DNA of 64,000 nt, taken from contig WLXD01000005.1 of assembly GCA_012103255.1 (NCBI GenBank), positions 124,001-188,000 of the forward strand, given 5' to 3'. This DNA is from Acidobacteriota bacterium. GTDB lineage: Bacteria; Acidobacteriota; UBA890; WLXD01. Below the pieces are notes generated by a model. That model worked only from the letters and a program-made list of their open reading frames with translations, had not been told where the DNA came from and did not search any database. The translations under genes and the position numbers were made by a program. Shown piece after piece: positions 5,537-59,394 of this stretch. Every line of letters starts with the position of its first letter. The stretch's first letter is position 1.

Positions 5537-5566
5537 CGGACTCTCCAGTGATGAGCAAGGAAAGGG

Positions 5567-5595
5567 AGTTTCCGGCGGCAATCAGCTACGGTCAA
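5567..5595 (-). promoter_or_regulatory. possible sigma70 promoter for the PHP-dcd-pepA-DHH run
   Basis: On the minus strand TTGACC (5590-5595) is followed after 17 bp by GAAACT (5567-5572), about 30 bp before the PHP gene start. The -35 is good and the -10 is weak. Confidence 0.35.
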
Positions 5596-5631
5596 GCGAT
5601 CCACAGGACGATAGCGAGGGCTGAGCGCGGA

Positions 5632-5637
5632 TATAAT
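5632..5637 (+). promoter_or_regulatory. perfect -10 hexamer upstream of acyl-CoA dehydrogenase
   Basis: TATAAT on the plus strand, 54 bp before the chosen GTG at 5692. No recognisable -35 at 16-18 bp spacing, so a promoter is plausible but may need an activator. Confidence 0.4.
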
Positions 5638-5691
5638 GACGCGCACCGGCAGTGCCATTCGGCGCGCCAAGCCCACCTTTTGGAGCCACCT

Positions 5692-6840
5692 GTGGATTAC
5701 CGCCTGACGGACGAACAGTCCCTGATCGCCGAGACCGTTCGCGAGTTCGCCGAGACCCGGGTCCGCCCCTTCGTGCGCGAGTGGGACGAGGCACAGAGTT
5801 TTCCCGCCGAGCTGTTCGCCGAGATGGGTGAACTCGGCCTGATGGGCGTGATGATTCCGGAGGAATACGGCGGCGTTGGCCTGGGGCCGCTGGAGCTCTC
5901 AACGGTGATGGAGGAGCTGGGGCGCGTCGATCCCTCGGTCGCCCTGGCCGTCGCGGCTCACAATGGGCTCTGCGTCGGGCATATCGCGGTGGGCGCCAAC
6001 GAGGAGCAGAAGCAGCGTTACTTCCCGAAGCTCGCCACGGGCGAGTGGGTCGGATGCTGGGGCCTCACCGAGCCGCAGGCGGGCTCTGACGCCGCCGGCA
6101 CGCAGACCCGCGCCGAGTGGAATGAGGAGCGCAACGGCTGGATTCTCAACGGCGCCAAGACATTCAATACGAACGGTGCGCGCGCTCACGTCGCCGTGGT
6201 GTTGGCAGTTACGACTCCTGGGCTCGGCACCAAGGGCATTTCGGCGTTCATCGTCGAGGCTGGCACGCCCGGCTATCGAGTGGGTCGAAAGGAAGACAAG
6301 CTCGGGATGCGGGCGAGCGATACGGTCGAGTTGATCCTCGAAGACTGCTTCGTTCCAGCCGAGAACCTGCTTGGGGAACGTGACCTGGGCTTCGTGGACG
6401 CGCTCAAGGTGCTCGACCGCGGTCGGATCAGTATCGGGGCGCTCTCAGTAGGCATTGCTCAGGGGGCGCTTGAGGCCGCTTTGGAATATGCCCAGGAGCG
6501 CCATCAGTTTGGTCGGCCGATCGCGTCTTTCGAGGCGATTCGCGCGAAGCTGGCCCGCATGGCCGCTGGCACGCGCACGGCGCGCGACATGGTTTATCGC
6601 GCGGCGAGGCTCCGCGCCGACGACAAGCCTTTCAAGCTCGAGGCCTCGATGGGCAAGCTCTTCGCCTCCGAAGTCGGGATGTTCGTGGCCGAAGAAGCCG
6701 TGCAGATCTTCGGCGGCTACGGCTACGTGAAGGACTATCCCGTGGAGAAGTTCTTCCGTGACGCGAAGTTGTGCACGATTGGTGAGGGGACCTCGGAGGT
6801 TCAACGTCTCGTGATTTCACGTCAGCTTCTGGCCTCGTGA
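5692..6840 (+). CDS. acyl-CoA dehydrogenase
   Basis: FAD enzyme of the short/medium/branched-chain acyl-CoA dehydrogenase family, making the alpha-beta double bond of acyl-CoA esters. 382 residues from the GTG at 5692, the usual length. That start has GGAG six bases upstream; the frame is open to 5548, but the added 48 residues do not resemble the family. The substrate and FAD loop reads GCWGLTEPQAGSD. The catalytic base sits in IGEGTSEVQR (Glu365). It overlaps the methylmalonyl-CoA epimerase gene by 4 bp (GTGA), suggesting branched-chain amino acid or odd-chain oxidation. Exact chain specificity is not readable. Confidence 0.93.
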   Translation: MDYRLTDEQSLIAETVREFAETRVRPFVREWDEAQSFPAELFAEMGELGLMGVMIPEEYGGVGLGPLELSTVMEELGRVDPSVALAVAAHNGLCVGHIAVGANEEQKQRYFPKLATGEWVGCWGLTEPQAGSDAAGTQTRAEWNEERNGWILNGAKTFNTNGARAHVAVVLAVTTPGLGTKGISAFIVEAGTPGYRVGRKEDKLGMRASDTVELILEDCFVPAENLLGERDLGFVDALKVLDRGRISIGALSVGIAQGALEAALEYAQERHQFGRPIASFEAIRAKLARMAAGTRTARDMVYRAARLRADDKPFKLEASMGKLFASEVGMFVAEEAVQIFGGYGYVKDYPVEKFFRDAKLCTIGEGTSEVQRLVISRQLLAS

Positions 6841-54521: not shown

Positions 54522-54536
54522 ATGAAAATATTATGA
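54522..54536 (+). other. five-codon leader frame overlapping the rpsA start
   Basis: ATG AAA ATA TTA TGA. Its TGA shares bases with the rpsA ATG at 54533. GGAGG (54516-54520) is 1 base before this ATG and 12 before the rpsA ATG, neither ideal. Confidence 0.35.
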
Positions 54537-56443
54537 CGGACGAAACCGTCCAGCCTGAAGAGGCTGCACCCACCACGAAACCTGAAGAGGCCGCGCCAGC
54601 GGAGCCTGAAGAGGCTGCGCCAGCGGAGCCCGAAGAGGCCGCGCCCGCGCAGCCCGAAGAGATCACACCGACGGCTTCGGCCGATCTGCTTGCCCAGCTT
54701 GATGCTATGGAGGGCGGCGAGATCGATCCCGAAGTCATGATGCAGCTCTACGCCGAGAGCCTGAAAGACCTCACCGAAGGCGACGTTGTCAACGGTCGCA
54801 TCATCGAGGTGCGCGACACCGAAGTGGTTGTCGACATCGGCTACAAGTCCGAGGGTCTCGTCCCTATCGACGAGTTCAAAGATGCCCTTGGCGAGATCAA
54901 CATTGAGGCCGGGGACGATGTAGAGGTTCTACTCGTCCGCCGCGAAGACCGCCACGGCAACGTGGTCGTATCGCGCGGCAAGGCCGAGCAGATGAAGGTC
55001 TGGGGCCGCATCGAAGAGGCCTTCGAGTCCGAGGAAACGATCACTGGTGTCGTTACCGATCGGGTGAAGGGTGGCCTTTCGGTCGACATTGGCGTCCGCG
55101 CCTTCTTGCCGGGTTCGCAGGTAGACCTGCGACCGGTGCGCAACCTCGAAGCCATGAAGGGCGAAGAAATCGAGGTTCGGGTCATCAAGGTGAACCGTCG
55201 CCGCGCGAACGTCGTTGTTTCGCGCAAGGCCGTTCTCGACGCATCGCGCGCTGAGGAGAAGACGGTCACTCTCACGAAGCTCGTGCCGGGCAACATCCTG
55301 CGCGGCGTCGTGAAGAACATTACCGACTACGGGTGCTTCACCGACCTGGGCGGAATCGACGGCTTGCTGCATATCACCGATATGTCGTGGGGCCGTATCG
55401 CGCATCCGAGTGAGATGTTCGAGATCAGCGACGAAATCGACGTCGTTATTCTCAACTTCGACCCAGAGCGTGAGCGTGTTTCGCTTGGCTATAAGCAGCT
55501 CAGCGAAGATCCCTGGATCGGCGTGACCGAGGAGTATCCGGTCGGCGCTCGCATGCAGGGCAAGGTAGTCAGCCTGACTGACTACGGTGCCTTCGTGGAG
55601 CTAGAAGAGGGCGTTGAAGGCCTGGTGCACATCTCCGAGATGACTTGGAAGAAGCGCATCAAGCACCCGTCGAAGCTCGTGCAGATCGGCGATCCAGTCG
55701 ACATCGTGATTCTCGATGTTGACGAGAGTTCGCGACGCATCTCGCTCGGGATGAAGCAGACGGAGCCCAACCCATGGCGTGTCATCGCCGAGAAGTACCA
55801 CGAAGGTCAGGTCATCACCGGACGCGTCCGGAACCTGACCGACTTCGGTGCATTCGTAGAGATCGAAGATGGCATCGACGGGTTGATTCACATCTCCGAC
55901 ATGTCCTGGACCAAGCGCGTGGAGCATCCCTCCGAAGTGCTACAGAAGGGCCAGGAAGTCGAGGTGGCGGTTCTCAACGTTGACGTCGAGCGACAGCGAC
56001 TCTCGCTGGGTCTCAAGCAGCTCAGTCCGAACGTCTGGGATCAGTTCGTTGCAACCCACAAGGTTGGCGATCAGATCGACGGCGTGATCACGAAGCTCAC
56101 CAACTTCGGTGCCTTCGTCGAGCTGGAAGAGGGCCTCGAGGGCTTGCTTCACGTCTCCGAGATCTCGGAGCGTCACGTCAAGGATCCGGCCGACGAGCTC
56201 AAGGTGGGCGAGCCGGTTCAGGTTCGCATCCTCAAGGTCGAGACGGATTCTCGGAAGATCGCGCTCACTCTGCGTGATTCCACCGAGGAAGCGACTCGCG
56301 AGGCTGCTGAGGTCGAGAGCTACGAGCCGAAGACGAAGTACGAGAAGGACGGGACGATGACTCTCGGTGATCTCGTGGGCAACATCTTCGGTTCCTCGCG
56401 CAGCGCCGCCGAGGACGATGACGAGGACGAGGACGAAGTCTAG
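54533..56443 (+). CDS. rpsA: 30S ribosomal protein S1
   Basis: 636 residues with six S1 domains starting near GDVVNGRI, ETITGVV, GNILRGVV, GARMQGKV, GQVITGRV and GDQIDGVI; the last four carry the classic DYGAFVEL/HISEM pattern. Captures mRNA on the 30S subunit. It starts with an unusual 45-residue Glu/Pro/Ala-rich tail built from repeated PEEAAPAE units, so total length is above the E. coli 557. C-terminus acidic (DDDEDEDEV). In E. coli S1 represses its own message. Confidence 0.96.
   Translation: MTDETVQPEEAAPTTKPEEAAPAEPEEAAPAEPEEAAPAQPEEITPTASADLLAQLDAMEGGEIDPEVMMQLYAESLKDLTEGDVVNGRIIEVRDTEVVVDIGYKSEGLVPIDEFKDALGEINIEAGDDVEVLLVRREDRHGNVVVSRGKAEQMKVWGRIEEAFESEETITGVVTDRVKGGLSVDIGVRAFLPGSQVDLRPVRNLEAMKGEEIEVRVIKVNRRRANVVVSRKAVLDASRAEEKTVTLTKLVPGNILRGVVKNITDYGCFTDLGGIDGLLHITDMSWGRIAHPSEMFEISDEIDVVILNFDPERERVSLGYKQLSEDPWIGVTEEYPVGARMQGKVVSLTDYGAFVELEEGVEGLVHISEMTWKKRIKHPSKLVQIGDPVDIVILDVDESSRRISLGMKQTEPNPWRVIAEKYHEGQVITGRVRNLTDFGAFVEIEDGIDGLIHISDMSWTKRVEHPSEVLQKGQEVEVAVLNVDVERQRLSLGLKQLSPNVWDQFVATHKVGDQIDGVITKLTNFGAFVELEEGLEGLLHVSEISERHVKDPADELKVGEPVQVRILKVETDSRKIALTLRDSTEEATREAAEVESYEPKTKYEKDGTMTLGDLVGNIFGSSRSAAEDDDEDEDEV
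54554..54661 (+). repeat. tandem 24-bp coding repeat in rpsA
   Basis: One 27-bp and three 24-bp units (54554-54580, 54581-54604, 54605-54628, 54629-54652) plus the first bases of a fifth, each beginning CCT/CCC-GAA-GAG and encoding PEEAAPAE-like residues. Not CRISPR: units are in frame and adjacent. Confidence 0.85.
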
Positions 56444-56479
56444 TCGGGGCGGTGCGCCACGGAGTACGCTGACAGGGCG

Positions 56480-56755
56480 ATGACCAAGGCTGATCTGATC
56501 GAAGAAGTGGTAGCCGTGACTGACCTGAGCCGACGGAGCTCGGAGCAGGTCGTCACGGTGTTCTTCGACAGCATCGTGGAATCGCTTCGTCGGGGCGACA
56601 AGGTCGAGTTGCGGGGTTTCGGTACATTCCGGTTGCGGCATCGCCGCGCTCGGGTGGGCCGCAACCCCAAGACCGGCGAGAGCGTTCAGGTGCCTGCCAA
56701 GGCGGTGCCGTACTTCAAGCCTGGTAAGGAACTTCGTCGGTTGGTCAACAACTGA
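56480..56755 (+). CDS. HU/IHF-family DNA-bending protein
   Basis: 91 residues: MTKADLIEEVV, dimer helix, VELRGFGTFRLRHRRARVGRNPKTGE and a C-terminal helix; the arm Pro in GRNPKTGE fits the DNA-intercalating tip. Placed right after rpsA as ihfB is in proteobacteria, so IHF-beta is likely, but HU cannot be excluded. Confidence 0.9.
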   Translation: MTKADLIEEVVAVTDLSRRSSEQVVTVFFDSIVESLRRGDKVELRGFGTFRLRHRRARVGRNPKTGESVQVPAKAVPYFKPGKELRRLVNN

Positions 56756-56819
56756 CGAGTCCGTCGGTTCGGCGGATGTAGGTACGGAAACTCCCTGGAT
56801 TGCCTGATGGAGAGCGCCC

Positions 56820-57761
56820 TTGAATCCCCTTCTGAATGAAGACGAACAGGCGGCCCGGGCAGCAGCTCGGACGATGGCCGCCGAGGCGTTCTCGGTAGGC
56901 GCCGCGACGCCCGAAGCTATTGGCGCTGCCGCGGCGTCCGTAACGGCCGCTGACGGTGTGCAGTCCAACCTGCACATGACGCTTGCGGTGGAAGAGATCG
57001 CTCGTGTAGCGCCGGCTGCGGGTGCTGCCGTGGGCAGTGTCGCTGCCGCTGCGCTCGTGCTCCGCGAGGCTGGACAGGAACCCAACGGCCTGGCCGTTTG
57101 CGTGGGCGGAGGCTCGGTGTCTGCCGACGAGTCTGGCGTAGCAGGGACTTCGGAGCCGGTGCCAGCGGCACAATACGCGGATCGCTTCATTGTGATCGGC
57201 GACGACGCTGTGTGGATGGCGGCCGGTGCCGCGACAAGCGCCGACCTCGACGGCTTGGCCGGATCGGGCTTGGCGCGCGTTGAAGTATCGAGCGGCGAAC
57301 AGATCGGAGGCGCAGATCTCGCGCAGTTGGGCCGCGCCGTGTTGCGACTGCAGCAGTCCGCCGTGGCCGTGGGGATCTCCGCTGCTGCCCAGGATGCGGC
57401 GCTGACAGCGATCGCTGATGCGAAGGAGTCCGGCGGCGCGCCGGATCGTTCGCAGGCGGTGCAATGGGCGCTCGCAGACATTGCGACGGAAGCAGAGGCG
57501 GCTCGTGTGGCTACATGGCATTCGGCTTGCGCCGATACCACCGACCAGGGGTCAGCGATGGCACTTGTGTTGGCGACCGACGCCGCAGCAAAGGCCGTTC
57601 GACTCGCTGCCAAGATTGGCGGCGTGGAGTCGGCGGCAGCAGGCGGCCGGATGGCTGAACTGCAGCGTGACGCCAAGCTTGTCGAACTCTTGGGTGGCGG
57701 CGCTGCTGCTCAACTTGGGACGATCGCCGACGCGCTTCTTCCTGACGTTCCTCGCGCCTGA
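56820..57761 (+). CDS. degenerate acyl-CoA dehydrogenase-like protein without catalytic Glu
   Basis: 313 residues, very Ala-rich. It looks like a shortened acyl-CoA dehydrogenase: NEDEQAARAAARTMAAE at the start, a reduced beta domain (EPVPAAQYADRFIVIG), and a C-terminal four-helix part ending RDAKLVELLGGGAAAQL. In the intact neighbour the same spot reads RDARVTTIYEGTSEIQ, so catalytic Glu363 corresponds to Gly292 here and activity is unlikely. TTG start with GGAG seven bases upstream. The intact gene follows 8 bp later, so they are co-expressed and may form a heteromer. Not a pseudogene: the frame is open and regular. Confidence 0.75.
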   Translation: MNPLLNEDEQAARAAARTMAAEAFSVGAATPEAIGAAAASVTAADGVQSNLHMTLAVEEIARVAPAAGAAVGSVAAAALVLREAGQEPNGLAVCVGGGSVSADESGVAGTSEPVPAAQYADRFIVIGDDAVWMAAGAATSADLDGLAGSGLARVEVSSGEQIGGADLAQLGRAVLRLQQSAVAVGISAAAQDAALTAIADAKESGGAPDRSQAVQWALADIATEAEAARVATWHSACADTTDQGSAMALVLATDAAAKAVRLAAKIGGVESAAAGGRMAELQRDAKLVELLGGGAAAQLGTIADALLPDVPRA

Positions 57762-57769
57762 GGCGCGGC

Positions 57770-58924
57770 GTGGACTGGAAGCTCACCGCGGATCAGTCAA
57801 TGATTCGCGAAATGGTGCGAGAGTTCGCAGACGCGGAGATCGCACCTCACGCCGCAGAATGGGATCGCCGTAAGGAATTCCCGAGCGCGACCTTCGAACA
57901 GCTTGGGGAACTCGGCCTCTTCGGCATGGTCGTGCCCGAGGAGTGGGGCGGGGCCGGACTCGACGGTACGGCGTATTGTCTCGCGCTGGAAGAGTTGGGG
58001 CGGGTCGATGCCTCGACCTGCGTCGCCATCAGCGTAACGAACTCCGTGTATTGCGCGCCGGTGAACAAGTTCGGTACGGATGCACAGAAGGATCGGTGGC
58101 TGCGCCCGTGCGCGAGCGGTCAGTGGCTGGGCGCATTCTGTCTCTCCGAACCAGATGCGGGGTCTGACGCCGCCGGACTCACGACGCGCGCGGAGCGCCG
58201 TGGTGACGACTACGTGCTCAATGGATCCAAGGCGTGGATCACCAGTGGCGAGGTGTGCGGAGCGATGCTGGTCTTCGCCGTCAGCGGCGAAGTGGCTGGC
58301 AAACCCGAGTTCAGCGCATTCATCGTGCCGCGCGAGCATGACGGGGTGGCGATCATCCATCGCGAAGAGAAGATGGGATTGCGCTCCTCGTGTACGAATC
58401 AAGTCGGCTTCGAGGACTGCGTACTGTCGTCGGACCACCTGCTCGGTAACGAAGGCGATGGCCTGAAGATCGCGCTCGACAGTCTGGATGGCGGTCGTGC
58501 TGGCATCGCGGCGCAGTCCGTCGGTATCGCACAGGGCGCGTTCGACGTCGCGCATTCGTATCTCCAGGAACGAGACGCGTTTGGGGGGCCGATCGGTCGG
58601 TTCGAGGGGCTTCGACACGAGTTGGGACGAATGGCCGCCGAGATCCGCGCCGGCCGGCTGTTGTACCTGCGCGCGGCTACTCTCCGGGATCGCGGGCTGC
58701 GGAACACGCGACAGGCGGCCATTGCCAAGCTTCACGCCAGCGAAGCGTCGAATCGAATCGCCTACCAGGCGGTTCAGATGCACGGCGGATATGGCTACGT
58801 AACTGACTACGATGTCGAACGCTTCTACCGCGACGCCCGAGTGACCACGATCTATGAGGGTACTTCTGAGATTCAGCGGCTCGTGATCGCGCGAGCTGTG
58901 CTGCAGAGCGCGACGGGCGCGTAG
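57770..58924 (+). CDS. acyl-CoA dehydrogenase, intact
   Basis: 384 residues, full length. Seen: LTADQSMIREMVREFAD, the substrate and FAD loop FCLSEPDAGSDAAG, ALDSLDGGRAGIAAQSVGIAQGA, HGGYGYVTDYDVERFYRDAR and the catalytic Glu363 in YEGTSEIQRLV. Likely short- or branched-chain specific; exact substrate unclear. GTG start 8 bp after the degenerate paralogue. Followed by a 131-bp gap with no gene seen, then trxA. Confidence 0.93.
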   Translation: MDWKLTADQSMIREMVREFADAEIAPHAAEWDRRKEFPSATFEQLGELGLFGMVVPEEWGGAGLDGTAYCLALEELGRVDASTCVAISVTNSVYCAPVNKFGTDAQKDRWLRPCASGQWLGAFCLSEPDAGSDAAGLTTRAERRGDDYVLNGSKAWITSGEVCGAMLVFAVSGEVAGKPEFSAFIVPREHDGVAIIHREEKMGLRSSCTNQVGFEDCVLSSDHLLGNEGDGLKIALDSLDGGRAGIAAQSVGIAQGAFDVAHSYLQERDAFGGPIGRFEGLRHELGRMAAEIRAGRLLYLRAATLRDRGLRNTRQAAIAKLHASEASNRIAYQAVQMHGGYGYVTDYDVERFYRDARVTTIYEGTSEIQRLVIARAVLQSATGA

Positions 58925-59055: not shown

Positions 59056-59394
59056 ATGAGCGATCACACAGTTGATTTGACCAGCGAGAACTTCGACACC
59101 GAGGTCTTGCAGAGCGACGTGCCGGTATTGGTGGACTTCTGGGCGGTATGGTGTGCGCCCTGCCGCATGATTGCGCCGGTGGTGGACGAGTTGGCGGAGA
59201 CCTACGACGGCAAGGTCAAGATCGGCAAGCTCAATGTCGATGAGAACGGCGATATTGCGTTCCGCTACAACGTCCGGGGTATTCCGGCACTGCTGATGTT
59301 TGGTGGCGGTCAGGTGGTGGACCAGATGGTGGGCGCGGGCTCTCGCGATCGAATCGTAGCTATGATCGACAAGGCCACATCGGCCCCCGCATAG
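59056..59394 (+). CDS. trxA: thioredoxin with CAPC active site
   Basis: 112-residue thioredoxin: [21 protein letters not shown], with active site Cys33-Ala-Pro-Cys36 instead of the common CGPC, then [25 protein letters not shown] containing the cis-Pro. No signal peptide, so cytosolic reductant for ribonucleotide reductase and others. AGGAG upstream of the ATG. The yceD gene begins two bases after its stop. Confidence 0.94.

Follow-up and report, generated by a model that had tools for sequence, protein, structure and literature searches.

Most of the known heteromeric acyl-CoA dehydrogenases (ACADs) that include a dead subunit come from steroid degradation, and there the intermediate stages of their origin are difficult to trace. 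Within the window (the whole 64,000-nucleotide stretch of acidobacterial DNA analysed here), two adjacent genes raise the question of whether such an arrangement has also arisen elsewhere: a degenerate ACAD gene, here called A, lies directly before an intact one, B. Is A a non-catalytic subunit of the enzyme to which B belongs, a protein repurposed for other work, or a gene in the course of being lost?

The two genes and their products

Gene B (57770..58924, plus strand, GTG start, 384 aa) is a complete short-chain-type ACAD and the proposed catalytic subunit. Its product has the N, M and C domains of the family together with the catalytic Glu363, found in the motif IYEGTSEIQ and encoded at 58856..58858 on the plus strand. 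The best NCBIfam model for B is the acryloyl-CoA reductase AcrC, at 408.6 bits versus a cut-off of 640, and the nearest proteins in a PDB sequence search are putative and short-chain or butyryl-CoA-type dehydrogenases. The window contains one more complete ACAD gene at 5548-6840 (plus strand), of 430 aa with N, M and C domains.

Gene A (56820..57761, plus strand, TTG start, 313 aa), the proposed non-catalytic subunit, ends 8 bp before B on the same strand, the spacing given in the original prediction. Its sole Pfam match is the ACAD C-terminal domain PF00441, which covers residues 166-307 (E 9.8e-13, 48.9 bits versus a cut-off of 22.4), and BLASTP aligns A with B at 26% over 132 aa (E 6e-5), so the claim that the two proteins are alignable over the C-terminal helices is borne out. 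The alignment also reproduces the predicted pairing of Glu363 of B with Gly292 of A (codon 57693..57695, plus strand), and A has no catalytic base at this position. The same position is occupied by Gly in the window and by Gly, Gly, Asp, His, His and His in the six other A copies read from this bacterial order, with Glu in none of the seven. Window A further lacks the SEPxAGSD flavin/CoA motif, the W-x-T motif and the Thr that follows the catalytic Glu-Gly. The residue before the Arg256 equivalent is, we assume, the site of the catalytic base in IVD/LCAD-type enzymes; no substitute Glu is seen at this known alternative site in the alignment of A, and a base there was rejected. By these comparisons A is predicted to be catalytically dead. 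Two further features of the original prediction were confirmed, namely a reduced beta domain, seen as a shortened region at residues 92-163 that is mostly of low confidence in the structural model, and a high alanine content (27.8%, versus 13.3% in B).

The AF2 model of A has a predicted ACAD fold (mean pLDDT 74, pTM 0.80). Unlike the shortened beta region, which is largely not well predicted, the C-terminal helical bundle has block-mean pLDDT values of 78-97 over residues 161-290 and includes a helix at residues 212-237. VIA-align superimposes the model on human SCAD (7y0a) with Z 30.5 and rmsd 3.3 over 304 residues, and VIA gives Z 28.5 and rmsd 3.5 over 302 aligned residues with the steroid enzyme Tcur3481-Tcur3483 (6wy8). 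As SCAD scores higher, the model is not specially close to the heteromeric enzyme.

Conservation and constraint across the order

A pair made of a Glu-less A and a Glu-bearing B is present in seven of the nine genomes available for the order, a recurrence that makes the pair more than a chance arrangement and that answers the suggestion in the original prediction to look for it in other genomes. In all seven assembled loci A directly precedes B on the same strand and in the same order, with gaps of -16 to 47 bp, and A was not found alone in the order. The catalytic Glu is present in 5/5 readable B sequences. The upstream neighbours rpsA (54533..56443) and an HU/IHF-like gene (56480..56755) and the downstream thioredoxin gene trx (59056..59394), all on the plus strand, are conserved as well; the four loci with full flanks (the window, G001, G004 and G005) share the order cmk-rpsA-HU-A-B-...-trx-YceD-plsX-fabD-fabG. 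That some lineages of the order lost A independently was considered and rejected, as the stretch is unassembled in G006 and G002, the two genomes from which A seems absent: one contig of G006 breaks off within HU and a second opens with a B12-binding gene ahead of trx, and G002 has no match to trx and only a 39% match to HU. The A of G007 and the B of G008 are cut by contig ends. The partial B of G003 (L173, 4187-4852) fits the family for 172 aa and then departs from it near the contig end; it is possible that this frame is an assembly chimera, and it was left out of trees and residue counts.

Within these loci A varies widely. It is about 375-385 aa long in a sister family, about 353 aa in G003, 323 aa in G001 (locus L061, of the same genus as G000, the window's own genome) and 313 aa in the window, and its alanine content ranges from 14% to 28%. 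Within the genus, the A proteins are 53% identical and the B proteins 83%. Such lost catalytic residues, progressive shortening and rising alanine content are what would be expected of a duplicate on its way to becoming a pseudogene. Against this stand seven A copies read without a frame break, the invariant motif QxxQWxLADxATE, and dN/dS values for A of 0.164 (G004-G005, dS 0.72) and 0.185 (G000-G001, where dS is 2.19 and synonymous sites are near saturation). B gives 0.065 and 0.083, and the values of A resemble those of the functional neighbours YceD (0.194) and cmk (0.173 and 0.093). The ratios indicate that A is a constrained gene under purifying selection and, at a dN/dS of 0.16, therefore not a pseudogene; we rejected that reading on the ratios and the intact frames, and regard it as very improbable. 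An antisense frame of 578 aa (55940-57676, minus strand) overlaps the end of rpsA and the greater part of gene A, and is probably a high-GC by-product, since the plus-strand frame is the one under purifying selection.

If A is maintained, it could still have left the ACAD complex, with B acting as a self-sufficient homotetramer and A repurposed as a regulator, chaperone or scaffold. B does have every catalytic residue and most FAD residues, and A evolves two to three times faster than B. The strict adjacency of the two genes in 7/7 loci is hard to reconcile with such a role, and the segment of A that survives best is an ACAD core helix, not a new surface; a repurposed A thus seems to us unlikely.

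Intact pairs and the origin of the degenerate partner

The lineage of A was followed by a profile search of 396 genomes, 387 of them outside the order, in which at most five candidates were scored per genome; 80 of the 421 confirmed relatives were kept. Members of the order score 313-591 bits against the profile of their own A, and none above 261 bits was seen in the rest of the 396 genomes. Among the matches listed, there are at least 11 tandem A-B pairs in six other families and one single A. A set of 12 genomes with intact genes was drawn from adjacent or top matches, with pairs from six families and G028 from a seventh; the catalytic Glu is present in 12/12 A and 11/11 B among those examined. 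In gene order, in the B clade, and in an A matched by synteny and a moderately supported tree, these pairs are like those of the order, and they differ from them in that both members retain the catalytic Glu (11/11 pairs, plus the single A).

The single intact A (L174, from another family) sits at the same cmk-rpsA-HU locus, where HU is followed by HIT, A, methylmalonyl-CoA mutase, a B12-binding protein, a thiolase, an OB-fold protein and trx; the OB-fold domain adjoining the thiolase is of ChsH2 type. Parts of this arrangement recur within the order, as L062 has HIT between HU and A, and L170 has mutase and B12-binding genes between B and trx. A mutase also follows the intact pair of L165, and none follows that of L175. 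The tree places the B of the order inside the B clade with support of 100/99. The A of the order groups with other A at 89/88, in a tree from which the A sequences of the window, G001 and G003 were left out as too long-branched, and the rival grouping of order A with B has a p-AU of 0.058. The position of A in the tree is thus suggestive and not decisive, the topology with B being only marginally disfavoured; because the long branches weaken the placement, it is synteny that carries the claim. Synteny and tree together lead us to conclude that, in this order, the A gene of an ancestral tandem pair lost its catalytic function. A would then have shrunk from about 375 to 313 aa after that loss. 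The history that these comparisons point to is the decay, specific to this order, of one of two tandem genes, arisen separately from the ChsE enzymes of steroid catabolism.

The FAD site and the proposed complex

Residues Q292, R281, F284 and Q349 (MCAD numbering) are taken here to be contacts of the FAD-ADP moiety, and their distribution between A and B is uneven. The helix Gln (Q292) is present in 10/11 B proteins of other families and in 72/75 Glu-bearing ACAD frames from other genomes. The three exceptions, L073, L127 and L129, carry B-like RDARVTT or RDGRATT sequences, and the Gln-less frames of L073 and L127 directly follow another ACAD gene. In A this Gln sits in a segment running into the QWxLAD motif. 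The sliding windows rank the corresponding helix (B281-304 in B numbering) first of 91 for conservation in A, at 0.83, and residues 210-237 of A (RSQAVQWALADIATEAEAARV, 57447..57530, plus strand) form the best preserved A segment across the order. The overlapping window B277-300 is the sixth lowest of 91 for B, whose residues 278-303 (58601..58678, plus strand), the helix with Glu at the Gln site, are among its least conserved stretches. The other contacts are distributed differently. The Arg281 equivalent is found in 1/7 and that of Phe284 in 0/7 A (the R-x-x-F-G loop), the Gln349 equivalent in 6/7 (window A has Lys there) and that of Gly352 in 7/7. B keeps the equivalents of Arg281 (6/6), Phe284 (6/6), Gln349 (5/5) and also Gly352.

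The reading that we favour, with some confidence, is an A-B heteromer in which A would be the non-catalytic subunit in the FAD-sharing position. Such a complex would probably be A2B2, each A-B pair presumably having a single FAD and a single active site. B would bind the flavin and the acyl-CoA and supply the base; the C-terminal helical bundle of A would pack against B and complete the assembly; and A could offer part of its neighbour's FAD-ADP half-site through the invariant helix Gln and a Q-x-x-G segment. Electrons would then pass to ETF, an alpha gene of which is present on contig C7 of the window's genome. B probably acts on a short- or branched-chain acyl-CoA, judging from its relatives and from the methylmalonyl-CoA mutase genes beside related pairs; the mutase of the window's own genome lies elsewhere, on contig C1.

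The same residues also bear on another arrangement, in which B2 forms the canonical FAD-sharing dimer and A joins through the dimer-of-dimers face or as an A2 cap, with no FAD role. B retains Arg281, Phe284 and Gln349 and so could still build a canonical homodimeric FAD site, and A, whose best kept part is the C-terminal bundle, has lost the first two of the contacts that B keeps, which weakens the case for the A-B complex. What speaks against the B2 dimer is the helix Gln, replaced in 6/6 B of the order (by Glu in window B) and kept in 7/7 A, and we consider this arrangement improbable. The retention of the Gln in A and its loss in B look like a division of labour between the two chains. The reciprocal change is a single evolutionary event, noticed after the fact, and in G109, from another family, the helix Gln of B is lost though its A is intact. 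An A-B heteromer is the best reading of a gene always found beside B, as the original prediction of an accessory subunit had it; the two lost FAD contacts count against that prediction, and the association itself is inferred.

A second system in the same order combines similar parts. On contig C1 of the window's genome, at about 878255-886822 on the plus strand (L195, 1756-10323), a frame of 2,855 aa encodes in turn an FAD oxidoreductase, a FixX-like CIKCETCW segment recognized by eye, a degenerate ACAD, a Glu-bearing ACAD and, near its end, ETF alpha. The oxidoreductase appears to be FixC/ETF-QO-like, a reading of a generic Pfam match. A 680-aa stretch around the degenerate domain was found in 6/247 Acidobacteriota genomes, all of this order; the fusion frames measure 2,855, 2,900 and 2,921 aa in G000, G002 and G004, and the others are cut by contig ends. 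The catalytic Glu is absent from the degenerate domain in 6/6 and present in the live domain in 4/6, those whose contigs reach it. A single polypeptide of this kind could pass electrons all the way from acyl-CoA to quinone. That a dead and a live ACAD are joined in one protein raises the plausibility of an A-B complex in the window but is no proof of it.

Quite possibly, two ACAD systems that combine a dead and a live unit have evolved in this order outside steroid catabolism. One would be a split pair, in which the dead partner is being worn down step by step to a C-terminal helical scaffold, and the other a fusion of about 2,850-2,920 aa. The intact pairs, together with the sister family's full-length dead A, would mark natural stages on the way from tandem enzymes to an obligate heteromer whose pseudo-subunit is minimal. 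Related genomes contain intact pairs, dead partners of full length and one that has shrunk, partly at one conserved locus, and the series allows a test of what share of a catalytic subunit must remain when a heteromeric flavoenzyme uses it as a mere partner. Among open-licence PMC papers we found none on a dead ACAD partner in Acidobacteriota and none on an ETF-QO/ACAD/ETF fusion.

Comparison with known heteromeric enzymes

ChsE4-ChsE5 and ChsE1-ChsE2 (FadE26-27 and FadE28-29) are described as alpha2beta2 steroid ACADs of Mycobacterium, in which flavin ring, Glu and substrate all sit in the alpha subunit and the ADP-ribose of FAD is touched by beta (PMC11153573, PMC8399759). The likeness is that of two genes, one encoding a subunit with Glu and flavin site and the other a subunit without Glu, and the adjacency of a Glu-bearing and a Glu-less gene, typical of ChsE/IpdE pairs, is found in A and B. 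By analogy B would fit the alpha role and A the beta role in part. Unlike the ChsE pairs, A and B are both of short-chain (SCAD/BCD) type by PDB sequence search, they adjoin rpsA, HU and trx instead of steroid genes, and the losses in A go much further, extending to two supposed FAD-ADP contacts. No steroid-degradation gene cluster is present among the neighbours tested, in keeping with the predicted setting outside steroid genes. Among the NCBIfam models of heteromeric steroid enzymes only IpdE2 is listed for B (68.3 bits versus a cut-off of 450) and none for A; membership of the ChsE/IpdE subfamily was rejected on these below-cut-off scores and on the SCAD/BCD types of the nearest PDB sequences. 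Of the ChsE-like arrangement originally proposed, the juxtaposition of a Glu-less and a Glu-bearing gene thus holds, and the kinship gives way to a separate origin.

Tcur3481-Tcur3483 (PDB 6wy8) has its fold in common with the A model and differs in its steroid substrate. CasC, described as two fused ACAD domains (PMC8399759), resembles the window's pair in having two ACAD units, which in CasC work together; CasC is fused and steroid-specific, whereas the pair in the window is encoded by two genes.
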